From: Spirochaetales bacterium
Lineage (GTDB): Bacteria; Spirochaetota; Spirochaetia; SZUA-6; JAFGRV01
Assembly (NCBI GenBank): GCA_016930085.1
Contig: JAFGHO010000106.1
Coordinates: 1-38,465, forward strand
DNA: 38,465 nt
Direction of reading: 5' to 3'
The stretch's first letter is position 1, and each line of letters begins with the position of its first letter. Shown in pieces: positions 1 through 12,283 of the stretch. The translations under genes were made by a program, and so were the position numbers. The notes beneath the pieces were generated by a model. It was not told the origin of the DNA, did not search any database, and saw nothing but the letters and a program-made list of their open reading frames with translations.

Positions 1-530
1 GCGGATGCACGCGGATGATTGCAGGTGGAAGTGACACTTGTCTGGTGATAAAGTGAAACAATAAAGCAATAGAATTAATGTAGATAAAGAAAACAGTAAG
101 GAATAAATTAAAATAAAAACAACAGGGTCCGATGAATCAATAGAAGACGAAACTTTTTTAGCGGGGAAAGCGTACACTGAAATATGACATCATCTGCGCA
201 GCCCGACCCGTTTGATTGAGGAGTGATTTGTTTTATGGATGTGAAGGCAGGCGTTATTCGATAAGGCCGTCGGGCATCTGCGGAAGCCCCGCAGGGAAAA
301 TAGAAAAAGCCGCCGTTCATTTATTTTAAGGTGACTGCATAAAAAAAATCGCGGGGCGATCTGTAGTTTATCAATAAAAAATGAAATCTACACAAAAAGC
401 TTTCGCAAAGGGGAAACCGTCACCGTGCCGGGAATCAAAAGAATCTATAGTCGGTTTATAGTGACAATAATGTAAAAGAAAAAGGAATAACCGGTACGGT
501 ATCGAGTTAACAGGGCCATAACGTGATCGC
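1..530. other. Non-coding stretch downstream of the histidine kinase
   Basis: No convincing gene is visible in these 530 bases. The open frames are AT-rich, lack ribosome binding sites and resemble nothing I know. The first 17 bases contain GCGGATG twice, 10 bases apart, which looks like the edge of a degenerate short repeat. A small perfect hairpin, CTGCGG-aagcc-CCGCAG, lies at 278-294 without a T-run. The terminator candidate at 341-360 is listed separately. The rest is AT-rich spacer. Confidence 0.5.
341..360 (-). terminator. Candidate intrinsic terminator of the seven-gene operon
   Basis: Read on the minus strand, the stem ATCGC-CCC-GCGAT is followed directly by a run of eight T (plus-strand A run 341-348, stem arms 348-352 and 356-360). 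It lies about 170 bases beyond the kinase stop codon and faces the right way to end the operon that begins near 8405. The stem is only five base pairs, so it may be weak. Confidence 0.5.
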
Positions 531-1868
531 TTACAATGGTATACCGATGTGAAACGCTGTCCCGCAGCCCCGCCGCGATGTCACGCCGATGTCCCATCCG
601 TGGGCGTTGATGATCGATTTTACCGTCGAAAGCCCCAAACCGAATCCCCTCGTCTCGTTCGGTCGGCCGCCGCGGAAGAAGGGATCGAAGATCCGTTCCA
701 GTTCGTGCGCTTCGATCCCGGCCCCCGTGTCGCGGATCGTGAGGACGATCTTTTCCTTTTCAATCACCGCATCGATGGCGATTTCGTCTCCTTCTTTCGT
801 GTAACGGAGTGAATTATAGAAGAGATTCTCGAGGGCGCGGAGGAGGAGACCCTGGTCGATCTCGACCGTGACGGTATCCGGAATATCGATGGCGAACGAA
901 AAGCGGCGTTTGAATATATGCGCGTCGTCCCGGTAAATCGTTGCGGCCTGCATCAGAAAATCCCCGAAACTGACACGCTCGCATTTGAGACGCCACTCCC
1001 CCGTTTCCATTTTCACGAATTCGATGAGTTCCTCGATCCTCGCTTCGAGCAGGCCCGTCTTGTCCGAAATAATCGAAAGATACTTTTCGAGGGTCTTTCG
1101 GTCGCCGGCGAGTCCGTCGGTTATCGCTTCCGTGTATCCTTTTATCGTCGTAAGCGGCGTTGAGAGGTCGTGGGAAACGGCCATGAGAAAGCGGGAACGC
1201 TTGGCCAGTTCCTCTTTCAGCGCTTCCCGCATGCCGTCGAACGCGCGCGTCAGCGATGCGATTTCGTCGTTTCCTTTGGGCTCGAGCTCGAAATCGAGGT
1301 CGCCCCCGGCGATGCTGCACGCCGCTTTTTCGAGGCCCATGATCGATCTTCTGAACGAACTCACAAAGACGACACCCGCGATCGAACTTGCCGTCAAGAG
1401 AAATAAAAAGACCGGTCCTATCCAGCGTAAAAATCTGAAAGGATTGGCGAAATTTTGCGTTTGTTGATCGACACTGATAAAGACCTTTATCCCTTCCTGG
1501 GCGGTGATAAAGCGCGGATCGTAAAGCTGGCTTCGTTCGGGAAACTCCCGTGTCAGGTACGATATGAGGTCCTCCGGCGGAATGATCCTTCCCGTTTCAA
1601 TGTCCTCGAGTGATGAAAAGAGAACCCTGTTGTCCGGGGCGAGCGCCGCTATATCGACGCCGTCGGGAATCGTGTGAAGAATCTCATCTGCGTCTTCGCC
1701 TGCCTTGAGAATGGCGTTGTGCATCCATTTCATTATTTCCACGTGCCTGTTCGCTTCCTCGTCCTGCATCAGTATAATCGAATATACCAGACCGATAAGG
1801 AGGGTTATAACAGCCGGTATGGTGATGATCGCCGCGATGACGACGGCGAATTTGGTGGTCAATTTCAT
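531..1868 (-). CDS. Sensor histidine kinase, membrane-bound
   Basis: This 445-residue two-component kinase should autophosphorylate on a histidine and pass the phosphate to the regulator encoded just upstream. A membrane helix at about 8-33, a roughly 110-residue extracytoplasmic sensor region, a second helix at about 148-170 and a HAMP region precede the catalytic core. The H-box VSHDLSTPLT places the acceptor at His233. The N-box lies near Asn348/Asn352, with G1 DTGAGI at 380, F-box FDPFF at 394 and G2 GFGLGLS at 408. The core is complete and looks active. The start codon overlaps the regulator stop by four bases (ATGA), implying translational coupling. It is the last gene of the minus-strand operon. 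The sensor region belongs to no family I can name; an envelope signal linked to the export genes is an inference from context. Confidence 0.93.
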   Translation of the reverse strand: MKLTTKFAVVIAAIITIPAVITLLIGLVYSIILMQDEEANRHVEIMKWMHNAILKAGEDADEILHTIPDGVDIAALAPDNRVLFSSLEDIETGRIIPPEDLISYLTREFPERSQLYDPRFITAQEGIKVFISVDQQTQNFANPFRFLRWIGPVFLFLLTASSIAGVVFVSSFRRSIMGLEKAACSIAGGDLDFELEPKGNDEIASLTRAFDGMREALKEELAKRSRFLMAVSHDLSTPLTTIKGYTEAITDGLAGDRKTLEKYLSIISDKTGLLEARIEELIEFVKMETGEWRLKCERVSFGDFLMQAATIYRDDAHIFKRRFSFAIDIPDTVTVEIDQGLLLRALENLFYNSLRYTKEGDEIAIDAVIEKEKIVLTIRDTGAGIEAHELERIFDPFFRGGRPNETRGFGLGLSTVKSIINAHGWDIGVTSRRGCGTAFHIGIPL

Positions 1869-2575
1869 ACGTTTCCTCCCCCCGTATCGAGCGCTTTTTC
1901 GTTAAAAAAGTATCCCGCGCCGTAGATATTCTGAATATAGACGGGCTGCGAGGGGTCGTCTTCGATTTTCCTCCGAAGCCGCTGTATGTGAATCGCCACG
2001 GTGGCGAGTTCCCCGTACTTCCGGTTCCAGACGTGCTCATATATTTCGTTTGCCGTAAAGGCTTTTCCCGCGTTGCCGGCAAGGAAAAGGAGTACTTCGA
2101 ATTCCTTTACCGTGAGCGCCACCCGTTTGTCGCCCTTCATCAGGGTATAGGCGTCCGGGGAGAGGGTGAAGGCGCCGAAGTGTATGGCGGCTTTCCCGTG
2201 ATCCGGGCGTTCACCGGCGCGACGGAGCAGGGCGCGGATCCGCGCGGCGAGGACCCGCGGTGAAAAGGGTTTGACGACATATTCGTCCGCCCCGATTCCC
2301 AGCCCCAGAATGAGGTCTTCGTCCGTCTTTCGCGCTGAAACGATGATCGTCGGGACGCCGCTTTCCTTTCGTATCCTCTGGAGAAACTCGAACCCGTCCA
2401 TGCCGGGAAGGTTGATGTCGAGAACGATGAGATCGTAATCGCGCGAGGAAAGTTCTTCCATCCCACGCTCCGCCGTGGCGCAGATCACCGAATCCATTCC
2501 TTCGTTTTTCAGGTAAAGACCGATAAGCCGGGCTATGTCCTCTTCGTCTTCGATAATCAGAATGTTCGCTTTCAT
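1865..2575 (-). CDS. OmpR/PhoB-family response regulator
   Basis: This 236-residue DNA-binding regulator has a receiver domain (1-115) with acidic pocket Glu9/Asp10, phosphoacceptor Asp53 in VLDINLPGMDG, Ser80 and Lys102. A winged-helix output domain (about 135-230) contains the family-typical run ending in a YGAGYFF hairpin. It is the expected partner of the kinase whose start overlaps its stop. The start is set by AGGAAA about eight bases upstream, which itself overlaps the stop codon of the preceding barrel-protein gene, so this gene is co-transcribed with the transport genes. OmpR-family regulators bind as dimers to direct repeats with about 11-bp spacing. One such array lies at 14827-14859 in this window, but no link between the two is shown. 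Confidence 0.94.
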   Translation of the reverse strand: MKANILIIEDEEDIARLIGLYLKNEGMDSVICATAERGMEELSSRDYDLIVLDINLPGMDGFEFLQRIRKESGVPTIIVSARKTDEDLILGLGIGADEYVVKPFSPRVLAARIRALLRRAGERPDHGKAAIHFGAFTLSPDAYTLMKGDKRVALTVKEFEVLLFLAGNAGKAFTANEIYEHVWNRKYGELATVAIHIQRLRRKIEDDPSQPVYIQNIYGAGYFFNEKALDTGGGNV

Positions 2576-2583
2576 GGGATTTC

Positions 2584-4041
2584 CTAAAAACTTCCCCTGC
2601 CCAAAACAAAGTCGATTGCGGCGCCGGCACCAGGTCCCGCCGGGGTGTACTCGTCATATTGGCCGCCGTAGAATACCGGAATACTCAGCCGTACAAATGC
2701 GTAATCCGTGACGTTCCACGTGATCTGCGGCAAAAGCTGTCCGGAACCGTCGGAAAGATCCCCGATCCAGAAAAAGGAGGCGGTAATATCGGAATCGAAT
2801 ATCTCCGTCCAGATGACGCTCACCGCGGCGTAGTGCATCCCCCGTTGAAGAAGATCCCGGAAGGTGATGTCCCCCGCGGCAAGAAGGGCGCCGAGACCCG
2901 CCTGGTTCTCGAAGACTTCGAGATCGCCGTACCCTGTCCCATTGAAAAGGTATTGGCCGGTGAAGGTAATGTTTTCAAACGATGTATCGATCTGTCTCAG
3001 GTTGTACATGAAACCCGCGGTACCGGAAAAGAAAAACTCGTTGTCCCTTTCGACCGTCTTGAGCCCGAAGGGATGTTCGAGGCTTACCGCCGTCGATTCG
3101 ACGAATGTCCTGTTGGCGCCGTAGCTTCCCACCGCTTCGGCGAACATATCGGTGTCAAACAATGGGAAGGTGAAGGTGAGCATGCCCGTCGGGGCGATGT
3201 CGACCTGATAAATCCCGCCGATTCCCACTTCGAGCGTGCCGATGACGAACTCCGCCTTCGGTGCCACATAGATCTCGTTCGGTTTGTCGATCTCGTGGGC
3301 GATGAGGTAGAGGTAGAGGTTGTGGACGCCGAACGGATACTGCGCTTTGAGCGACACGGGGCCTTCACGTTCCGCCGTGGGATCGGCCGGGTCGATCGGC
3401 GTGAGATTGAGGATGTCGGCCGGGCTGAAGAAGTAACCGACCCCCCACCTGATCGTATGCTTTCCGCCGCGGAAGAAAACGGTATTGCCGATGTTGAAAT
3501 CCGCGAAGAGTTCCCTGATCGCGATAATATCGTCCATTTCCCTTCCGGCATCCTCGTCTACGGTAAAGGGATAGGAGAGGACGGCCTTTCCGTAAACGCG
3601 GAAATCTTCTTCCGGGCGCGCGTCGAAATAGAGGACGCTTTCCAGTGTCGTTGTGAGAGTCGTCTCGTCGGGGTCGGCGATATTGTCAATGATATACCCC
3701 GCGTCGAGGGCGGGATCCGTCCACATGACCGCGGGGGTGAGTGAAAACTCGAACCTGCCCCCTATTTCAACGGTATCGGACCGGAGGAGGAGCGTGTCGA
3801 TACCGGAGGTGAGGTCTTCCTCCTTGTAATCCTTCACAACGTCGTCCTCGAAGAGCCCCCTGTCTTCTTCACCGGCGGCCGGGGGTTCCTCTTCGCCTCC
3901 CCCTCCGGCGCCGGCCGCCGTTCCCTCTCCTTCGATCATGTCATCGCCGAAAAGCTCATCTTCGTCGATATCCTGCGCGTACAGCGAAACCGCGCTGGTA
4001 AGCGTTATAAAAATAAGCAGGCATAATATTGTCCGTTTCAT
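2584..4041 (-). CDS. Predicted beta-barrel outer-membrane protein with acidic N-terminal linker
   Basis: This 485-residue protein has a clear signal peptide (MKRT, hydrophobic core, cleavage near YAQ-D at 23/24). The mature N-terminus (24-78) is highly acidic and low in complexity, with a Gly/Glu/Ala/Pro stretch at 40-60. It carries two related motifs, ELFGDDMIE (29-37) and LFEDDVV (63-69). From about residue 80 to the end, the sequence alternates hydrophobic and polar residues, is rich in Phe, Tyr and Gly, and ends in a terminal Phe, the usual outer-membrane barrel signature. The stretch RGGKHTIRWGVGYFF followed by a D-I-L-N turn is reminiscent of DUF1302-like barrels, but I do not assign the family. 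It follows the LolA-like gene by 9 bases and precedes the response regulator by 8. Likely role: the outer-membrane end of the export system. Confidence 0.85.
   Translation of the reverse strand: MKRTILCLLIFITLTSAVSLYAQDIDEDELFGDDMIEGEGTAAGAGGGGEEEPPAAGEEDRGLFEDDVVKDYKEEDLTSGIDTLLLRSDTVEIGGRFEFSLTPAVMWTDPALDAGYIIDNIADPDETTLTTTLESVLYFDARPEEDFRVYGKAVLSYPFTVDEDAGREMDDIIAIRELFADFNIGNTVFFRGGKHTIRWGVGYFFSPADILNLTPIDPADPTAEREGPVSLKAQYPFGVHNLYLYLIAHEIDKPNEIYVAPKAEFVIGTLEVGIGGIYQVDIAPTGMLTFTFPLFDTDMFAEAVGSYGANRTFVESTAVSLEHPFGLKTVERDNEFFFSGTAGFMYNLRQIDTSFENITFTGQYLFNGTGYGDLEVFENQAGLGALLAAGDITFRDLLQRGMHYAAVSVIWTEIFDSDITASFFWIGDLSDGSGQLLPQITWNVTDYAFVRLSIPVFYGGQYDEYTPAGPGAGAAIDFVLGRGSF
3835..3963 (-). other. 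Acidic linker with two LF-x-DD motifs in the barrel protein
   Basis: The segment covers residues 27-69 of the barrel protein. It starts with EDELFGDDMIE and ends with LFEDDVV, separated by a Gly/Ala/Glu/Pro spacer. The first copy matches EDDMFGSDIVE in the first permease (6899-6931) at E, D, F, G, D and E, with conservative changes elsewhere. Shared short motifs between two proteins of one export path could be a docking site; this is an inference. Confidence 0.5.
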
Positions 4042-4050
4042 GGCGCCCCC

Positions 4051-4797
4051 TTACCTGTTGACCCGTTCGACATAGGCTTTTGAGAAGACGTCATCGGGAA
4101 GGTTGTCGAGCGATATGTCGGTAATGGTCACCTGTGTTTTTTTCCCTTGGACAAGTTCGTCGACAAAAAGCATTTTCGTCGGCACGTACTTGTCTTTCAC
4201 CTTCGCGTATCCGGGGAAATAGGAGGTACGCATGTGGCGCCTGTTGAGGCTGTAATCCTCCATCTTGAGAATGAGGTTGTTGTCTTTTCGTACCCAGATC
4301 TTCTGATAAGGGTAGGTCACCTCGTCGTTCAGCGCTTCGAGATCGAGGATATACACCCCGAATTTCCCCAGCGTTCCCTCCTCCCACGAAACGGCTTTGT
4401 AATCTTCCTTGTAGCTTCTCGTGCGGAAATCGGAATGCCGCGTGTCCGTTCCTTCGAAACTTTCTTTCATCGACGTGTGATTGAACTTCCTGCTTTCCGG
4501 ATCGTAGAACCAGAGGTTGTCGTCGATCATCAGGTAGCCCTGTCCCTTCCGTGTTTTCGGTTCGAGAATGAGAAGGAGGAACTTGTCGTCCCTGTCCCGC
4601 CGGAACTGGTTTACCTTGAGGACTTCCCTCCCTTTTTCAGGGTCGTCGGACACCATGGTAAGGACGGATGAAAAGTCGTTCTCGTCGAACCTCCCCATGG
4701 TGTCGATCTGCGTGAGGATGGCGTCGATGTCGGGCGATGCGGCGCAAAGCCGTATCATGAACATCGCCATAATGACAATTAATATCGGTTTTTTCAT
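4051..4797 (-). CDS. Outer-membrane lipoprotein-sorting (LolA-like) periplasmic protein
   Basis: This 248-residue exported protein resembles the LolA-like family often annotated as outer membrane lipoprotein-sorting protein (the PF17131 type). The signal peptide is MKKPILIVIMAMFMIRLCAA. Family hallmarks include LEPKTRKGQGYLMIDDNLWFY near 79-99 (normally Pro-x-x-x-G-x-G-Tyr-Leu then Trp-x-Tyr), then Met-Lys-x-Ser-Phe-x-Gly-Thr-Asp, and a late basic-aromatic strand. The fold is an open half-barrel that binds a lipid or acyl chain in the periplasm. The start is the ATG at 4797, preceded by AAGGAG with eight bases of spacing; a longer in-frame start at 4818 lacks this support. With the ABC genes upstream and the barrel gene downstream, it is the likely periplasmic carrier. 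The cargo cannot be read from the sequence. Confidence 0.88.
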   Translation of the reverse strand: MKKPILIVIMAMFMIRLCAASPDIDAILTQIDTMGRFDENDFSSVLTMVSDDPEKGREVLKVNQFRRDRDDKFLLLILEPKTRKGQGYLMIDDNLWFYDPESRKFNHTSMKESFEGTDTRHSDFRTRSYKEDYKAVSWEEGTLGKFGVYILDLEALNDEVTYPYQKIWVRKDNNLILKMEDYSLNRRHMRTSYFPGYAKVKDKYVPTKMLFVDELVQGKKTQVTITDISLDNLPDDVFSKAYVERVNR

Positions 4798-4816
4798 ATA
4801 TGTATCTCCTTGTAAC

Positions 4817-4831
4817 ACGGGCCGGGCCCGT
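4817..4831. promoter_or_regulatory. Perfect 15-bp palindrome inside the operon
   Basis: ACGGGCC-G-GGCCCGT is a perfect inverted repeat in the 72-base gap between the second permease and the LolA-like gene, the only long gap in the operon. It could fold as a GC-rich hairpin without a T-run, and so act as an mRNA processing or stability element, or it could be a protein site. It lies just upstream of the AAGGAG ribosome binding site. Confidence 0.4.
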
Positions 4832-4869
4832 CATATTGTCGCACGGCACATACGCTTTCGTCAAACCGC

Positions 4870-6204
4870 TTAGTAGTGTGTGCCGAGCGCCTTCGCCGGA
4901 TCGAGTTTCGCCGCCCTCCGCGCCGGGAAGTAGGCGGCGAGCAGGCTGATCCCCCCGATAAGGACGGTACTGCCGAGGATGCCCGCGATCGAAGGCACGA
5001 ACGTCGGGTGTCCGTTCTTCAAAAAAATGAAAAACGGATTGTTGATGTCAAAGGACACGAACGAAAAGAGGCCCATCAGCGCGAGTGAGAGAGCGATACC
5101 GGCGGCAGTACCGAATATCGCGATCGAAAGGGCCTCGAGGAGGAACATGTTGCGGACCCCGCTCCGCTGCATGCCGATGGCCCGGATGGTTCCTATCTCC
5201 CTCGTCCGTTCGATGAGAATCATCCTGAAGGTATTGGTGATACCCACCATGGTGATGAGAAGGAGGATGAGAAAAACGAAGAATCCCACGTAATTGAGGA
5301 CATTTACCATGTCCATGACATGGGACATCAGGTCGTTCAGGGTCGTGATACTGTATTTCGTTCCCTCCCACGGTTCTTCCTCCTCGCCGCCCATCATCAA
5401 ACCGAACATGCCGTGTACTTGTTCCGGTCCGTCCTCCGCCTCCCCGTTTTCTTCTTCCCTCGGATACACGGGCGCTTCGGCGGATAGCGCGTTGTAGATA
5501 CGTTTCGCCTGGACATCCATCTCCTCCATGTTTTGAAGAAAAATATTGAAGGACTGGAATTCTCCGGGTCTGAGATTTATCAGCTCGTTCAAATAATCGC
5601 CGTGCACATAACAGGAGAAATCGCCGATGATGTCGGTGCTTTGCGAAAACGCGATGACCCGAAACTCCCCGACGTTTTGCTGGCCGGTGATCGTCTGTAT
5701 GCGGGCGAGCAGGGTTTCCCCCACCTCGACGCCGAGTTTTTCCCCGACGTTCGAAGAGATAATGATCGCGCGGGGATCGCTCAGTCCTGCGAGGCTTCCC
5801 TCCTTGATAAGGAGGCGGTCCCTGAAAAAGGACTCGTTCGCCCACTGGATGCCTTCGATCCCCTGCAGCATTTCACGCGATCCGAAGATAAGGGTCGCCA
5901 TCGCGCTCGAACGCTTCGTGATATATCCGACCTTGATATCGAGGTCCGCGATGATCCGCTGTAACAGTGAATCGTCACGTATCACATTGATCGTCTTTCC
6001 CGATTCACTCAGTTCGCTTCCCCGTATGTAAATGTGACCGGCTAATATCTGTGAAAAATTTTCCTTCACATTGGCGACCATTCCCCCGGTAAGACTCATA
6101 AGCAGTGTGATGACGAGCATCCCGAAAGCGATGGCCCCGCCGAGCAGGAAACTCCGTTTTTTCTGCCTGCTTATGTTTCTGAATGCAATGTTCAACGTTG
6201 TCAT
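4870..6204 (-). CDS. ABC transporter permease, FtsX/LolE/MacB type (second permease)
   Basis: This 444-residue inner-membrane permease belongs to the type VII ABC superfamily (LolCDE, MacB, FtsX), which extracts or pushes substrates from the inner membrane using mechanical transmission. One N-terminal helix (about 18-40) is followed by a MacB-like periplasmic domain (about 45-290) and three C-terminal helices (about 303-327, 355-383, 405-427). Between helices two and three lies the conserved cytoplasmic motif REIGTIRAIGMQRSGV that contacts the ATPase. The periplasmic domain holds an unusual Glu/Gly/Met-rich insert at about 249-280 (HGMFGLMMGGEEEE). The start is preceded by GAGGAGG, which overlaps the stop of the first permease. 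Two unlike permeases plus one ATPase suggest a LolC/LolE-like heterodimer. Confidence 0.92.
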   Translation of the reverse strand: MTTLNIAFRNISRQKKRSFLLGGAIAFGMLVITLLMSLTGGMVANVKENFSQILAGHIYIRGSELSESGKTINVIRDDSLLQRIIADLDIKVGYITKRSSAMATLIFGSREMLQGIEGIQWANESFFRDRLLIKEGSLAGLSDPRAIIISSNVGEKLGVEVGETLLARIQTITGQQNVGEFRVIAFSQSTDIIGDFSCYVHGDYLNELINLRPGEFQSFNIFLQNMEEMDVQAKRIYNALSAEAPVYPREEENGEAEDGPEQVHGMFGLMMGGEEEEPWEGTKYSITTLNDLMSHVMDMVNVLNYVGFFVFLILLLITMVGITNTFRMILIERTREIGTIRAIGMQRSGVRNMFLLEALSIAIFGTAAGIALSLALMGLFSFVSFDINNPFFIFLKNGHPTFVPSIAGILGSTVLIGGISLLAAYFPARRAAKLDPAKALGTHY

Positions 6205-6217
6205 TTTTGTACCTCCT

Positions 6218-7708
6218 CTACGCGGCCTGTATCGCTCTTACCGGCTGGATTCTCAGGGCGATGGAAACCGGATAGAGACTGGCGAGAATCCCGATGCCGA
6301 CAATGATGGCCAGGGACATGGCGATCGACGGCAGAGAGACGGCGGGGTAGAGTATTTTCCCGCCGAAAATGATCTCAAAAAATATATTCGGCGCCTCGAT
6401 GCCGGTCTTTCCCAGAATGAAAAGTATCGCCGAGCCCAGGACGATACCGATGAGGCCGGCTGCGGTTGAAATCATCGTCGTTTCGATAATGATCATCTTT
6501 CTGACAAATCCCTTTTGGGCGCCGAGTGCCCTCATCGTCCCTATTTCCGGAATACGTTCGGTGACTGAGATGACGAGGGTGTTCATGATGATGATGACCG
6601 CCACCACTGCGATAATGAGGACGACGGCGTTGAATACGATCTGTATCACGTCCGCCATCTGCCCCATCGGACCGGCGCCGGATTTCCAGTCGGCGATGTC
6701 CGCGAGCAGCCCCTTTTCCCTGAAAAAGGAGATCAATTCGGCCTTTACTTTTGAAATGAAGTCCTGGGATTTCAGCTTGATCAGGAGGAAATGCCACGCG
6801 CCAGAATCGACCTGTGAATACAGTTCGCGTTCTGCGATATCGCCGAGTATCGAGTCGAGATTTTCTGAGGTATGTTTTCCGCTTTCTTCATCGACGGCCT
6901 CGACGATGTCGCTTCCGAACATGTCGTCTTCCGATGCGGACGGTGAAGTGCCGTCGAAGGTCTCGATGAGATTCGTTTCTTCTTTCGTCGTTTCGACTTC
7001 GAGTTCGGCCCCGAGAGTCATGCCGTTCAATGCCCTGAGGCTGTCGATATCGATGAGGCTTACCATGTCGAGCTGGACGTTGGAGCTTTTGAACCGGAAT
7101 ATGCCGGTAACATTAAGTTCGCGGATCTTCGCGCCGGCGCCCGCGCTGAATCCGGTCAAAAGCACCTTGTCGCCGGCCTTGATTTCGGCGCCGTCTCCGT
7201 TGTTCATTCGCTTTGCCACCCGCTTCGACAGTAATATCCCTTTCACGCCGGGTGTAAGGAATTCGCCGTCGAGGATATCGATATTGCCGGGAAACATGGC
7301 GGCATACTCGCCGGGTTCGATACCGAACAGAATGGTGAAGGATCTGTTATCCTCGCCGTATGAGATCTGGGCCCTTCCCGCCGCCTGGCCGGAGACGGCT
7401 TCCACTTCGGGGAGGGATGCCGCGAATTCCTTTATTTCGGAATAGTGGGGGACGACGGGCATCGCTTCGTTGAAACTGTTGATGTCCATGGCGCCCAGGA
7501 GGGTGAGATTCATATCGCTTTCTCCCGTGACGATAAGGTGCCCGGTATAGTTTTCGATATAATTTTTTCTGATTCCCCGCGCTGCCGTTTCCATCATCGA
7601 ATTGCCGGTCACGAGAATCGTAATGCCTAAGGTGACGATAATCCCGATGATGAATGTCTTGACCTTGTGTTCCCTGATGTTTCTCCACGCGATTTTAATG
7701 AGTGCCAT
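6218..7708 (-). CDS. ABC transporter permease, FtsX/LolC/MacB type (first permease)
   Basis: This 496-residue permease has the same layout as its neighbour: an N-terminal helix (about 17-38), a large periplasmic domain and three C-terminal helices (about 354-382, 408-432, 462-482). Its coupling segment is RIPEIGTMRALGAQKGF (385-401). The periplasmic domain carries an acidic insert at 252-282 that includes EDDMFGSDIVE (260-270), a near match to the N-terminal motif of the barrel protein. The ATG at 7708 is chosen because AAGGGGA precedes it; the longer frame to 7750 has no such site and would add a basic, unlikely leader. The gene overlaps the ATPase gene by 14 bases, a sign of coupled translation. 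Substrate unknown; lipoprotein or lipid release toward the LolA-like protein is the simplest reading. Confidence 0.92.
   Translation of the reverse strand: MALIKIAWRNIREHKVKTFIIGIIVTLGITILVTGNSMMETAARGIRKNYIENYTGHLIVTGESDMNLTLLGAMDINSFNEAMPVVPHYSEIKEFAASLPEVEAVSGQAAGRAQISYGEDNRSFTILFGIEPGEYAAMFPGNIDILDGEFLTPGVKGILLSKRVAKRMNNGDGAEIKAGDKVLLTGFSAGAGAKIRELNVTGIFRFKSSNVQLDMVSLIDIDSLRALNGMTLGAELEVETTKEETNLIETFDGTSPSASEDDMFGSDIVEAVDEESGKHTSENLDSILGDIAERELYSQVDSGAWHFLLIKLKSQDFISKVKAELISFFREKGLLADIADWKSGAGPMGQMADVIQIVFNAVVLIIAVVAVIIIMNTLVISVTERIPEIGTMRALGAQKGFVRKMIIIETTMISTAAGLIGIVLGSAILFILGKTGIEAPNIFFEIIFGGKILYPAVSLPSIAMSLAIIVGIGILASLYPVSIALRIQPVRAIQAA
6899..6931 (-). other. Acidic EDDMFGSDIVE motif in the first permease
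   Basis: Residues 260-270 of the first permease lie in the predicted periplasmic domain, within an acidic, Ser-rich, probably disordered insert. The motif aligns without gaps to EDELFGDDMIE in the mature N-terminus of the barrel protein. The codons differ between the two genes, so this is not a recent DNA duplication but protein-level similarity, shared ancestry or chance. Confidence 0.45.
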
Positions 7709-8405
7709 TGGATGTCCCCTTGCGCGTTTCCTTGTCGATACGGCCGTCATGAAGATAGATGATGTGGTCGGCGATTCCGACGATGGCAGGATCGTGGGTG
7801 GAAAAAATGAATGTCGTTTCCTGGTCCCGGTTCATCTTTTTCATGAGTTCGATAATTGATCCGCCCGTTTTCGAATCGAGGTTCGCCGTCGGTTCGTCCG
7901 CGAGAACGATCTGTGGTTTTGTCGCGAGCGCCCTCGCGATCGCCACGCGCTGCCGCTGGCCCCCGGAAAGTTCGGAAGGACGGTGTTGAATCCAGTCCGA
8001 AAGCCCGACCTCGCCGATGATATAATTGACCCACTCGCGTCGTTCGGTTTTGTTCATATCGGTTTTACCGAGAAGCAGGGGAAACTCGACGTTTTCATAT
8101 ACGGTGAGGACCGGGATGAGGTTGAATGTCTGAAAGATGAATCCGATCACCCTGTGCCGCAGCGTGGTTATTTTCCGGTCGCTGAGTCCGTTCGTTTTCC
8201 TCCCCGCGATCTCGACGGTCCCTTCCGTCGGAACGTCGATACAGCCGATGAGGTTCAGGATCGTCGTCTTCCCCGATCCCGACGGACCCGCTATCGAAAT
8301 AAAGTCCCCTTTTTCAATTTCGAAGCTGATTCCCTTAAGGGCTTCCACATCGTGTTTCCCGAGTGGATATGTCTTTCTGACGCCGGTAAGCTTTACTATA
8401 CCCAT
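7695..8405 (-). CDS. ABC transporter ATP-binding protein, LolD/MacB type
   Basis: This 236-residue ATPase powers the two permeases encoded downstream. It has Walker A GPSGSGKTT (40-48), Q-loop FQTFNL (91-96), signature LSGGQRQR (146-153), Walker B IVLADEPT (166-173) with catalytic Glu171, and the H-loop in STHD. Length and sequence fit the LolD/MacB/FtsE group rather than importers. AAAGGAGCGGGT precedes the ATG with good spacing. It is the first gene of the minus-strand operon and overlaps the first permease by 14 bases. It acts at the cytoplasmic face of the inner membrane. Confidence 0.95.
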   Translation of the reverse strand: MGIVKLTGVRKTYPLGKHDVEALKGISFEIEKGDFISIAGPSGSGKTTILNLIGCIDVPTEGTVEIAGRKTNGLSDRKITTLRHRVIGFIFQTFNLIPVLTVYENVEFPLLLGKTDMNKTERREWVNYIIGEVGLSDWIQHRPSELSGGQRQRVAIARALATKPQIVLADEPTANLDSKTGGSIIELMKKMNRDQETTFIFSTHDPAIVGIADHIIYLHDGRIDKETRKGTSNGTH

Positions 8406-8704
8406 ACCCGCTCCTTTCCATATTGTTTGCTACTGCTAAAATACCATAACTTCACTAAAAAATACATAAACCGGATATAAAGAGAGTATAAATAAATAGT
8501 TTAGATTTCCTCTTTCTCGATGCGGGGAGGCCGTCAAGTCGGGGAGGAAAAGCGGAAGAGGACCGGTTTCTCCCCATGTCGATACGTTAAAAATCGGACT
8601 ATATAATAGAGGAATTTGAATATAATGAAATGATCGATTATCATTTGAGGAAGCGGCCGGGTGAATATCGTATGAAGCCCGGTCGAGGAAAAAGGGGATC
8701 GAAT
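8406..8704. other. Divergent intergenic region between the ABC operon and the ankyrin gene
   Basis: The left half is AT-rich and must hold the promoter of the minus-strand operon; several TATA-like hexamers are visible, but none has a good -35 at normal spacing, so I do not mark one. The right half holds the promoter at 8579-8607. No gene of its own was found here: the upstream in-frame starts of the ankyrin gene lack a ribosome binding site. Confidence 0.5.
8579..8607 (+). promoter_or_regulatory. Promoter candidate for the ankyrin-repeat gene
   Basis: TCGATA (8579-8584), a 17-base spacer and a perfect TATAAT (8602-8607) form a sigma-70-like promoter. Transcription would begin near 8614, giving a leader of about 90 bases before the ATG at 8705. 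A second TATAAT lies at 8621-8626 without a matching -35. Confidence 0.5.
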
Positions 8705-10435
8705 ATGGCACGAAAAAGCGACGAAGATAAAATACTCGATGAAATACGGGAAAGGGTGATCCGGGAAAGCGCCAACCTGAAAGAAGAAAGGGAACGTCTT
8801 GAAAAGGAAAAGGTGACCCTGGAAGCGCTCAAGGAATTGACGGACCTCCCCATAGACAAAATCGAGGCTATCGCGGATGAAGTGAGAAAGGATTTTCGTA
8901 AAAAGGAAAAACGGCCGTCTTCCGGGAAAGTCCGCCCTTCGGGAGCGTCCGTTGCGCCCGCAATCATTTCCTTCGCGGTAACCGCCGTCGTCATCGGCAT
9001 TGTGGTGTTTATCGTTGGGGGTATCGCCGTGTCAATTATACAGTATAACATCGATAAAGCGGAAACGGAGAAACGACTCGCGCTCGAGGGACAATACAGG
9101 GAACTCGTGTCCGCCGCCGAAACCGGGAACATGGAAACGCTCGAGGAACTCGTCGGCCGGGGAATCCCCGTCGAACTGGAAGGATACGAGGGGGAAAGCG
9201 CACTCATGGCCGCGGCCGGCGGCGTCAACGTGCGGGTCGTGGAGTTCCTCCTGGAATCGGGGGCGGATGTGACGAAGAAGAACAGGGACGGGAAAACCGC
9301 CCTCGACATCGCGGAAGAAGGGCCGAATCTTCGCATCCGGGGCGAACTCGCCGGGGCGATGGTAAAGGCCGCCCCTGCCGGGAGTACGATTCCCCTGCTC
9401 TGGGAAAAAGGGTTTTCTTATTCGCAGACGGCTTTCGATCAACGGGTCGAAAAACGGGACCTGGACGCGGTCCGTCTTTTTCTCCGGGCGGATCGCGGGG
9501 CTTTCTCCAACAATTGGGACGACGGCGGCATCGCTGAGGCGGCCTCTCTGGGTTATTCAGACATGGTGGAACTCATCGCGGAAGAGGGAAAGGATTTGTC
9601 GCCGGATTCCGTTAACATCGCACTGCTTCGCGCCTCGGAAACGGGTTCGGTCCCGGCGATCGAGGTGCTGCTCGGGCACGGGGCGTATATCGATTTCCGG
9701 ATGGAAGGATCCGCGACCGATCCGGAAGACGGATTTACCCCCCTCATGTGGGCGTTGTGGGAAGACAACGAGGCCCTTCAGTACCTTCTCGATAAAGGGG
9801 CGGACCCGGATGCGATGGGAAGTTACCATCTCGTCCCGCCGCTTTTCATACCCATGGATTATGTTCATAATTTCAGGCTGACGCAACGTCGCGTCGAGCA
9901 GTTCAGACTGCTCATCGCTTACGGGGCGGATATCAACAGGAAGGATTACTACGGCATGACCGCCATCGAATACGCCTGGTCCGTCCTTCGGAGCGACGAA
10001 GCGAAACCCTTTGTCAGGGTACTCAAGGAGGCGGGGGTGGAAATACCATTTACCCCGGACTCCTTTATACGGCTTGTTTTCGAGGGCGATCTCGAAAATG
10101 TACGCGATTTCCTTACGAGGGGATTCGATCCGAATCTCGAGGGATTCGAACGGTATGATGAAGAGGTAAACGCATTGATTAAAGCGGCAATGCTGGGATA
10201 TACCGGAATGGTAAAGCTGCTTCTGGAATACGGCGCCGATATCGATTACACCACCGCTTCGAAGAGGAACGCCCTTTTCGAAGCGGTAAAAAAGGAAAAT
10301 GTCGCAATGGTGAAACTCCTTTTGGAACACAACGCCGCGGTGACTCAGGATATGATGAATTATGTCAATAAATGGGGAGGATACGGCTCCCGGGTAACGA
10401 TTCGATCAATGCTTAAAAACGCGAAAAATAAATAA
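8705..10435 (+). CDS. Membrane-anchored ankyrin-repeat protein
   Basis: This 576-residue protein has three parts. Residues 1-75 are charged and helical, with a likely coiled coil in the Glu/Arg/Lys-rich stretch 8-45. A single membrane helix lies at about 85-113. The remaining 460 residues form ankyrin-type repeats, seen as recurrent ALMAAA-then-VEFLLESGADV, TPLMWAL-then-LQYLLDKGADP, and ALIKAAMLGYTGMVKLLLEYGADI patterns, with weaker repeats between. Ankyrin repeats bind proteins; no enzymatic motif is visible. With no signal peptide and a basic N-terminal flank, the coiled coil is probably cytoplasmic and the repeats periplasmic, though the reverse is possible. The ATG at 8705 is preceded by AAGGGGA. 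It stands alone between two promoters, so the partner is unknown. Confidence 0.88.
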   Translation: MARKSDEDKILDEIRERVIRESANLKEERERLEKEKVTLEALKELTDLPIDKIEAIADEVRKDFRKKEKRPSSGKVRPSGASVAPAIISFAVTAVVIGIVVFIVGGIAVSIIQYNIDKAETEKRLALEGQYRELVSAAETGNMETLEELVGRGIPVELEGYEGESALMAAAGGVNVRVVEFLLESGADVTKKNRDGKTALDIAEEGPNLRIRGELAGAMVKAAPAGSTIPLLWEKGFSYSQTAFDQRVEKRDLDAVRLFLRADRGAFSNNWDDGGIAEAASLGYSDMVELIAEEGKDLSPDSVNIALLRASETGSVPAIEVLLGHGAYIDFRMEGSATDPEDGFTPLMWALWEDNEALQYLLDKGADPDAMGSYHLVPPLFIPMDYVHNFRLTQRRVEQFRLLIAYGADINRKDYYGMTAIEYAWSVLRSDEAKPFVRVLKEAGVEIPFTPDSFIRLVFEGDLENVRDFLTRGFDPNLEGFERYDEEVNALIKAAMLGYTGMVKLLLEYGADIDYTTASKRNALFEAVKKENVAMVKLLLEHNAAVTQDMMNYVNKWGGYGSRVTIRSMLKNAKNK

Positions 10436-10564: not shown

Positions 10565-12283
10565 ATGGGGTCATACATACTGCACTATACCGCTTTTCTT
10601 TTTCCCGTGGTCCTGCTTTCAGGGATTATATGCTGTGCGACCGGATCGTATTGGGACAACTGGCCGGAATACCCCGGTTCGCCGGGGGGACCTGACAACT
10701 TTATACGGATCGACGAAACGGACGCCGCGCGCCTTGCCACACCGCAGGGAACACCCTTTCTCATCAGGGGGATCTCCTTCGGGAATCATGTATGGGGTAA
10801 CCCGCCGTCACCCGCCGGTTTTACCCACCACCGGGCGGATGATTACGGGCGAATCGCGGGAATGGGGTTCAACGCGGTGCGTTTTTACATGAATTACGGT
10901 ATTTTCGAAGACGACACGCGCCATTACCAATACAAGGACGGCGGTTTTGCATGGCTCGATGCGAACATCGCGGCCGCGCGGACGTACGGCATACGGCTCG
11001 TCCTCAACATGCATTACCCGCAGGGCGGGTTCCAGTCAAACGGGAACGGGGATGCACTCTGGTCGGACAGGATAAACCAGCTCAGGCTTATCGCGCTGTG
11101 GAAGGAGATCGCCCGCCGTTACAGGAACGAGGATTACATCATCGGCTACGGCCTGGTCAATGAACCGGTCCCCCTTGAAGGGGTGCCGCAATGGAAGGCG
11201 CTCGCCCAGGAGATCATCGACGCGATACGGGAGGTCGACCCGTATCATCTCATCTTTGTCGAACGGGCCAACTGGTTGAAATCGGAATCGACACAGACCG
11301 ATGAGGACAACCTTTACTTTCCCGCCGGTCTTGACGATCCGGGGCCGGAAAACAACATCGTTTACGAATATCACATGTACGAACCGTTCGCTTTCACGCA
11401 CCAGAACGCCGGCTGGGTCGAATCGACAGCCGGTAAATTTTCCGTCTTTCCCGATCCGAACCGCGTCGTCGCCGGGGCGGGGGAGTGGGCGGGCTTTGCC
11501 GGCGGCAACCCGCAGGCCCCGACGGGCACCTCTTCATGGACGGTCCTCGAAGGGAATCTCTACCGGGTTACCGATCCCGCTTATCGTCTGGGCAGGGCGG
11601 TCGTTCAGGCGCATTCGATCGGGAAGAACGGGACGGTCTATGCCGATGACTTCGTCGTGGAAGCCTACGATGAGGACGGGAGATTCGTGCGCGAAGCGGC
11701 GGACATTCCGGTCGGCACCGGAAGCGAATGGTACTTCTGGTCGGCAGACGGTTCGGGAAGCGGGGGCATCGCAACGGGTGTCTCCGGTTCGAGCGGGGGG
11801 GCGTGTCTTCGAATTTCAGGCACGACAGACGACGCCGTCTCGAGCAACGCCCGTGTTTTTATCGTCAGGCAGGGGTACCGGTATAAAATAAGCGGCAGAA
11901 TCAGGGGTGACGATGTCGCCTCGGGGGCAACGGTCCGTTTCCGCGTCGACTTCTATTCGTGCGACGGCGATATATACACTTGGAACAGGGACTACCTCCG
12001 GGCGCTCGTCTCAAGATACGCCGCTTTTTCCCGAAAAAACGGCCTGCCGCTTTATCTCGGCGAGTTCGGGACGATTACCGACAGCTTCAGGGAAAACCGC
12101 GGCGGTCTTTCCTGGGTTGGCGCCATGCTCGATATACTCGGAAAGGAAAACGTCAATTACAATTACCATACCTTCCACGAGACCGCTTTCGGACTGTACG
12201 CCAATCCGGCGGATGAATATCCGCGCCAATCCGCGCTCAACGTTCCGCTTGCGGACCTCTTCATGTCGAAACAGACGCTATAA
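10565..12283 (+). CDS. Secreted glycoside hydrolase family 5 (cellulase/mannanase-like) with inserted domain
   Basis: This 572-residue retaining glycosidase (clan GH-A TIM barrel) has an N-terminal hydrophobic signal (4-24) ending in Cys-Cys, so it is exported and possibly lipidated, although the lipobox is poor. Barrel landmarks are RGISF (68-72), the acid/base in LVNEP (Glu200), the YEYHMYEPF strand (267-275) and the nucleophile in YLGEFG (Glu500). Between the last two, where a short loop is usual, sits a segment of about 185 residues (290-475) rich in Gly, Ser and beta-strand pattern, resembling a carbohydrate-binding jelly roll. The substrate is a beta-1,4-glucan or mannan by family inference. 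No other start has a ribosome binding site. Its 3' end faces the 793-residue lipoprotein gene with 13 bases between. Confidence 0.87.
   Translation: MGSYILHYTAFLFPVVLLSGIICCATGSYWDNWPEYPGSPGGPDNFIRIDETDAARLATPQGTPFLIRGISFGNHVWGNPPSPAGFTHHRADDYGRIAGMGFNAVRFYMNYGIFEDDTRHYQYKDGGFAWLDANIAAARTYGIRLVLNMHYPQGGFQSNGNGDALWSDRINQLRLIALWKEIARRYRNEDYIIGYGLVNEPVPLEGVPQWKALAQEIIDAIREVDPYHLIFVERANWLKSESTQTDEDNLYFPAGLDDPGPENNIVYEYHMYEPFAFTHQNAGWVESTAGKFSVFPDPNRVVAGAGEWAGFAGGNPQAPTGTSSWTVLEGNLYRVTDPAYRLGRAVVQAHSIGKNGTVYADDFVVEAYDEDGRFVREAADIPVGTGSEWYFWSADGSGSGGIATGVSGSSGGACLRISGTTDDAVSSNARVFIVRQGYRYKISGRIRGDDVASGATVRFRVDFYSCDGDIYTWNRDYLRALVSRYAAFSRKNGLPLYLGEFGTITDSFRENRGGLSWVGAMLDILGKENVNYNYHTFHETAFGLYANPADEYPRQSALNVPLADLFMSKQTL
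11432..11989 (+). other. Candidate CBM-like domain nested in the GH5 barrel
   Basis: Residues 290-475 of the glycosidase interrupt the barrel between the YEYH strand and the helix leading to the catalytic YLGEFG. The insert has alternating strands (VVQAHSIGKNGTVYADDFVVEAY; VFIVRQGYRYKISGRIRG; ATVRFRVDFYS) typical of a CBM4/9-like beta-sandwich. The sequence on each side rejoins as a normal GH5 barrel, so it is an insertion rather than a fusion at an end. Family membership is not proven. Confidence 0.5.

Follow-up and report, generated by a model that had tools for sequence, protein, structure and literature searches.

The BBJ23-BBJ29 cluster of Borrelia encodes a MacB/LolE-like ABC transporter, a LolA-like protein and an Omp85 protein, and has been proposed as a route by which non-polar ligands or lipoproteins reach the outer membrane (PMC13078400, 2026); according to its authors, this seven-gene cluster is found only in Borrelia, where LolB is lacking and the route of surface lipoproteins is disputed (PMC13078400). 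In Castellaniella defragrans, the AmeABCD cassette, with an RND pump and LolA-superfamily and DUF1302 proteins, affects tolerance to apolar compounds (PMC6394551), while TP0790 of T. pallidum is described as an RND transporter (PMC8407342). The locus described here lies in a window of 38,465 nucleotides (the whole stretch of DNA analyzed), part of the 5.36-Mb, 135-contig genome of a Spirochaetales bacterium whose relatives are Spirochaetota MAGs. Like the Borrelia cluster, it belongs to a spirochaete and brings together a MacB/LolE-like ABC transporter, a LolA-like carrier and an outer-membrane barrel. It differs in having two permease genes instead of one permease modelled as a homodimer, in the absence of any TPR match (Pfam) among its seven genes, where the Borrelia cluster has two TPR proteins and a protein of unknown function, in its barrel, whose best fold matches are OprD/AlgE-type porins where that of Borrelia is of the Omp85 type, and in the presence of a two-component system. 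With AmeABCD it shares a LolA-superfamily periplasmic protein and an inner-membrane pump, and the AmeABCD barrel is a DUF1302 protein, to which ours may be distantly related; however, AmeABCD relies on an HAE3 RND pump rather than on a LolCDE-type ABC transporter, has DUF1329 in place of PF17131 and includes the extra periplasmic protein AmeC. The pump of the operon is ABC, not RND (MMPL), RND versions being present elsewhere in the genome. The LolCDE-LolA(-LolB) system also consists of an ATPase, two unlike 4-TM permeases and a LolA-superfamily carrier, but the operon proteins fall far under the curated LolCE and LolD cut-offs, the carrier is PF17131 and not PF03548, and a dedicated barrel and regulator are added. 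The transporter superfamily fold is the same in MacAB-TolC, from which the operon differs by the lack of a MacA adaptor and a TolC-type channel and by an ATPase that is not fused to the permease. Neither the 10-TM permease nor the kinase without extracellular domain that define BceAB-BceRS is present. In the literature searched, which included few subscription papers, no article on an ABC-PF17131-porin-like-barrel module or its regulator was found. The sequence-only reading that drew attention to this locus considered that the combined system had no described function, which stands for the exact module in the literature covered but has to be qualified, given that related clusters have been proposed or tested (PMC13078400, PMC6394551).

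All seven genes indicated by that reading were found on the minus strand between positions 531 and 8405, at the places and with the families that it had assigned. In the direction of transcription, they encode a LolD-type ABC ATPase (7695..8405, 236 aa), permease 1 (6218..7750, 510 aa), permease 2 (4870..6204, 444 aa), a periplasmic carrier (4051..4818, 255 aa), an outer-membrane beta-barrel (2584..4041, 485 aa), an OmpR/PhoB-family response regulator (1865..2575, 236 aa) and a sensor histidine kinase (531..1868, 445 aa). The ATPase and permease 1 genes overlap in window coordinates, and 13 nt separate permease 1 from permease 2. The gap between permease 2 and the carrier is 51 nt, or 72 nt if translation of the carrier starts at the likely ATG at 4797, which accounts for the 72-base gap mentioned in the earlier reading. 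The carrier and barrel genes are 9 nt apart, the barrel and regulator genes 8 nt, and the regulator and kinase genes overlap by 4 nt. Median gaps in relatives, along the same seven-gene order, are -1, 10, 14, 9, 13 and -4 nt, and this tight arrangement is not due to chance, because the order is kept in them. A candidate intrinsic terminator, a hairpin at 346..362 on the minus strand identified by pattern scan only, follows the kinase stop codon, and no Rfam matches were obtained within the window. From this layout, the seven genes are predicted to form one operon.

Best among NCBIfam models for the ATPase (ABC_tran, 3e-34) is LolD, although the score with TIGR02211, 237.4 bits, is under the cut-off of 307.75; the permeases reach 66.9 and 71.1 bits with the LolCE model TIGR02212, also under its cut-off (362). 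Each permease has FtsX and MacB_PCD domains (Pfam) and 4-5 TM helices predicted from hydropathy, the helices of permease 1 flanking a large periplasmic domain. Alignment with orthologs indicates that permease 1 probably begins at the ATG at 7705, with the sequence MALIKIAWRN. A plasmid search with permease 2 as query returned matches to its generic FtsX part only. The AF2 model of this protein (pLDDT 84.5) has LolE and LolC as its best PDB matches (Z 27.6, rmsd 4.2 and 386 residues aligned with LolE), followed by MacB (Z 21.3), the heme exporter HrtB (20.6), FtsX (about 13-17) and BceB (13.6). Residues 164-187 form a hairpin in which the motif T.TGQ.NVGEF is near-invariant among orthologs. The region of E. 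coli LolC that aligns with it is the Hook, on which LolA docks; with 16-28% identity in the alignment and a model without the carrier, the putative correspondence is a lead, not a test.

The carrier matches PF17131 (LolA_like) at 4e-44, with no match to PF03548 (Pfam), and its nearest solved relative is PDB 3buu (7e-20). Its N-terminus is a hydrophobic segment according to hydropathy, and no proper lipobox was seen. Nine PF17131 carriers, including this one, are encoded in the genome, and three others adjoin large, RND-sized genes (contigs C105, C99 and C128); C105 and C99 were confirmed to have an MMPL pump and a TetR regulator, and C105 also a DUF1302 barrel. Within this single cell, PF17131 genes thus adjoin pumps of the RND or the ABC type. 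For the barrel, searches of Pfam and PDB with the sequence gave no match, but AF2 yielded a confident beta-barrel (pLDDT 82.6) whose fold resembles OprD/Occ porins, at Z about 19, and AlgE, for which sequence identity is higher and Z about 18. DUF1302 was matched weakly by seven of 28 orthologs (best value 1.2e-5) and not by the window protein itself. Profile comparison connected the operon barrel with those at C128 and C20 of the same genome, and gave no significant match with the RND-linked barrels at C105 and C99. A POTRA domain was not found in the operon barrel by Pfam or among the fold matches, where the absence of a structural match does not exclude a family. The C-terminal Phe expected of BAM substrates is invariant in the ortholog alignment.

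The neighborhood was analyzed in 94 non-redundant loci around barrel homologs, 58 of which have enough upstream sequence. The exact order ATPase-permease 1-permease 2-carrier-barrel is kept in 44 of these 58, and several of the remaining loci look broken by draft-genome frameshifts or contig ends. The five transport genes are thus a conserved module across Spirochaetia, and the possibility raised at the outset that gene order might not be maintained in relatives does not hold. Homologous operons are also present in Trueperaceae (two loci) and in MAGs filed as Bacillota or Clostridia (six loci), and Rectinema subterraneum SURF-ANA1, a named isolate, has one locus with the two-component system and another without it.

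Unlike the transport genes, the regulatory genes are not part of the conserved core. The regulator has the receiver and winged-helix output domains required of the OmpR/PhoB class (Response_reg, PF00072; Trans_reg_C, PF00486), and the kinase consists of a TM segment, a periplasmic domain of about 120 aa, a second TM segment, HAMP, HisKA and HATPase_c. A regulator-kinase pair follows the barrel gene in 23 of 76 loci, and on a tree built with 56 rows and 1606 columns its gain and loss takes four changes, versus 14.8 with shuffled labels. The operon regulators form one clade (100/100 support), separate from seven paralogs of the same genome, and the distances between them track transport-protein distances (Mantel r 0.92; none of 2000 permutations as high). 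These three results together indicate that the pair is of old standing in one branch, as a regulatory part inherited together with the transport genes, so that an operon with its own two-component system describes this locus correctly but not the family. The proposal that the kinase senses the load of the pathway found no support: mean pairwise identity of its periplasmic domain is 14.5%, versus 46.5% in the HAMP-kinase part and 41-55% in the transport proteins, and tighter constraint would be expected of a domain that senses a conserved cargo or carrier.

A new element revealed by this analysis is a conserved operator upstream of the loci that have the pair, absent from those that do not. A 6-mer search for a direct-repeat box was uninformative, and the element, with consensus TAACAAAAtgTTATtaTTTcTTTATCcCCTGTtTATGG, emerged from aligned upstream DNA. 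In the window it corresponds to a 40-bp predicted operator/promoter region (8462..8501, minus strand) with a score of 23.5 when leave-one-out matrices were compared with dinucleotide shuffles (z 5.1; none of 200 shuffles as high). Sixteen of the 18 loci with the pair beat all 200 shuffles, the other two being equalled or exceeded by one and two of them, while only one of 33 loci without the pair did so; median scores were 29.3 and 0.0, respectively (Mann-Whitney p 5e-9). The core of the predicted regulator site, TTTATACTCTCTTTATATCCGGTTTAT (8466..8492, minus strand), contains three TTTAT repeats separated by N6, i.e. with an 11-bp period (15/15 positions match; 0/500 shuffles), and, on average, loci with the pair scored highest at this period, with no preference in the others. 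The 5.36-Mb genome contains the exact repeat pattern at two places (none for the control), and the second match, at C5:48608 in the 5' end of a PAS-kinase gene, may be due to chance. In each of five related genomes searched with the consensus, the operon promoter was the sole match. OmpR/PhoB-type regulators usually bind DNA at direct repeats spaced in this way, which leads us to predict that the encoded regulator binds here and that the operon is autoregulated through these repeats. Some caution is needed, as conservation of the operator is confounded with kinship: the loci that carry it are mostly from one branch, even though their proteins have diverged to 41-55% identity.

Genes adjoining the module in relatives offer some hints on its cargo. 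In a sister clade without the pair, the gene directly 3' of the barrel gene, often with zero gap, encodes a lipoprotein of FN3-propeller-like type whose lipobox Cys is invariant. This protein could be what the module transports, or else a partner in the outer membrane. A profile of it matched only FN3/propeller repeats of other proteins in the genome analyzed here, which were not taken as orthologs. In two genomes of one genus (G107 and G136), extra copies of the operator are found a few kb upstream on the contig of the operon. Each of them precedes a gene for a DUF3108-like protein, with a GDSL lipase in between; in one DUF3108 set a small POTRA/Omp85-like gene comes next, joined in G107 by a PLD-type lipoprotein. 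These candidate co-regulated neighbours point towards envelope lipid handling, with no proof of it. As a separate observation, an Omp85-like protein beside a LolE-like ABC and LolA-like set resembles the arrangement of BBJ25 in Borrelia. In one clade, a recurrent gene of around 404 aa 3' of the barrel had been taken as a possible cargo clue and was discarded: it encodes a metallo-beta-lactamase/flavodoxin (ODP) protein, lies at a distance of 63-262 bp and was judged a separate unit. The genes upstream of the operon (aminotransferase, MFS, aldo/keto reductase and EamA proteins, among others) vary by lineage and gave no signal.

Taken as a whole, these results make it reasonably probable that the operon encodes a dedicated pathway of the LolCDE superfamily for export across the envelope, with autoregulation. 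The export module itself is real, conserved and dedicated, in this branch under a regulator of its own, and this mechanism class is likely for it. The ATPase and the two permeases would assemble into a complex that extracts a lipid or lipoprotein and hands it to the soluble PF17131 carrier, which perhaps docks on the permease 2 hairpin located where LolC has its Hook; the carrier would then traverse the periplasm, and the OprD/AlgE/DUF1302-like barrel would serve as the site or the passage by which the cargo reaches the outer membrane. The kinase and the OmpR/PhoB-type regulator would control the operon through the three direct repeats of 11-bp period that lie about 90 bp ahead of the ATPase gene. 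As cargo, we favour an endogenous lipid or lipoprotein over a toxin to be expelled. A counterpoint to lipid export is that the best matches of the barrel, porins and AlgE, pass hydrophilic substrates.

An inducible efflux system for hydrophobic or amphiphilic toxins, or for membrane-active antimicrobials, with the two-component system acting as an envelope-stress switch, seems to us an unlikely but serious alternative, because the functionally tested analogue AmeABCD exports apolar small molecules and its deletion lowers monoterpene tolerance and increases Nile Red accumulation (PMC6394551). An adjoining inducible two-component system fits detoxification, as the fast-diverging sensor domain fits lineage-specific ligands, and the similarity of permease 2 to MacB and HrtB could be read in the same way, but LolE and LolC are closer to it, and the operon includes neither a MacA-type adaptor nor a TolC-type channel. 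The lipoprotein gene that abuts the module in the sister clade, and the envelope and lipid-type proteins that are the candidate co-regulated neighbours in one genus, also argue against efflux.

It is very improbable that the locus joins two loosely related units, one made up of a porin and its OmpR/EnvZ-like regulator, the other of an ABC transporter and carrier that have nothing to do with them. Porins are the classical targets of OmpR-type regulators, and the barrel has a porin-like fold; however, most loci keep the barrel, carrier and ABC genes as a group though they lack the regulator pair, and RND cassettes in the same genome also combine PF17131 with a barrel, one of them DUF1302. Identity with the housekeeping LolCDE-LolA set of the genome, suggested by LolD as best model of the ATPase and LolE/LolC as best structural matches of permease 2, is hardly credible and was rejected. 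A better LolCDE candidate is found at C69, where the permease pair reaches 208 and 176 bits with TIGR02212 (also under the cut-off of 362) and LolD 258 bits, compared to 67 and 71 for the permeases and 237 for the ATPase of the operon; the only PF03548 LolA of the genome is at C81, eight more PF17131 carriers are present besides that of the operon, and the carrier profile, at 1e-20, finds a match in 164 of 297 genomes of the class but none in the other 133. The notion of a dedicated LolCDE/LolA-like route with a barrel between both membranes thus gains support, as regards its non-housekeeping nature and its conserved neighborhood, and the objection that no other LolCDE/LolA set might exist is answered. 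Although FtsX-type permeases do adjoin a two-component system, a Bce-like flux sensor for antimicrobial peptides, formed by transporter and kinase, is scarcely tenable with two permeases of 4-5 predicted helices each versus the single 10-TM BceB, a kinase with a periplasmic domain of about 120 aa, a far weaker structural match to BceAB (Z 13.6) and a module that also has a carrier and a barrel.

Returning to the export pathway that we favour, a broader proposal, for which we would claim somewhat less than an even chance, is that these genes represent an undescribed and ancient ABC-LolA_like-barrel route, widespread in spirochaetes and common to Deinococcota and some Bacillota, that dispenses with LolB in taking one specific cargo, a lipid or a surface lipoprotein, to the outer membrane, and that one branch put under a co-inherited two-component system reading an 11-bp-repeat operator. 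The delivery of lipids and lipoproteins to the spirochaete outer membrane is largely an open matter, and this module, widespread in the class, unites the types of hardware that such a route needs, while the operator gives direct experimental access to the question of when the cell uses the pathway.

Matches to the predicted operator could also be found away from the operon promoter. In one genus, extra copies lie close to the operon and 5' of DUF3108-like genes (L216:2939-2974, L216:5923-5958 and L217:1324-1359), one of these gene sets continuing with Omp85-like and PLD-type genes. In the window's own genome (G000), a second exact match to TTTAT-N6-TTTAT-N6-TTTAT is located at contig C5:48608-48634 (L206:1501-1527), at the 5' end of a gene that encodes a PAS-type sensor kinase. 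Within the window, the operon has its upstream region in common with a divergently oriented gene (8630-10435, forward strand) whose product is a membrane-anchored ankyrin-repeat protein; beside that gene lies one for a GH5 (cellulase-family) glycosidase (10565-12283, forward strand).

The same genome carries RND-type cassettes with PF17131 carriers on contigs C105, C99 and C128 (L062, L063 and L064); an MMPL pump and TetR were confirmed in the first two, and a DUF1302 barrel in that of C105.

The five-gene transport module was also found in MAGs labelled Bacillota or Clostridia (L124, L127, L136, L144, L165 and L177) and in Trueperaceae (L141 and L176). Those placed on the tree fall within the two-component branch, yet lack the regulator-kinase pair, and lateral transfer or mislabelled bins are possible explanations. 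A Smithella sp. SCADC contig (L187), on which the Rectinema subterraneum locus (L186) recurs in near-identical form, looks like spirochaete contamination in a public assembly.

In a sister clade that lacks the pair, the operons end in a gene for an FN3-propeller-like lipoprotein (L185:9050-10378, L160:9455-10942, L150:9440-10903 and L178:9305-10888), whose start coincides with the stop of the barrel gene. This lipoprotein is a possible cargo or partner.
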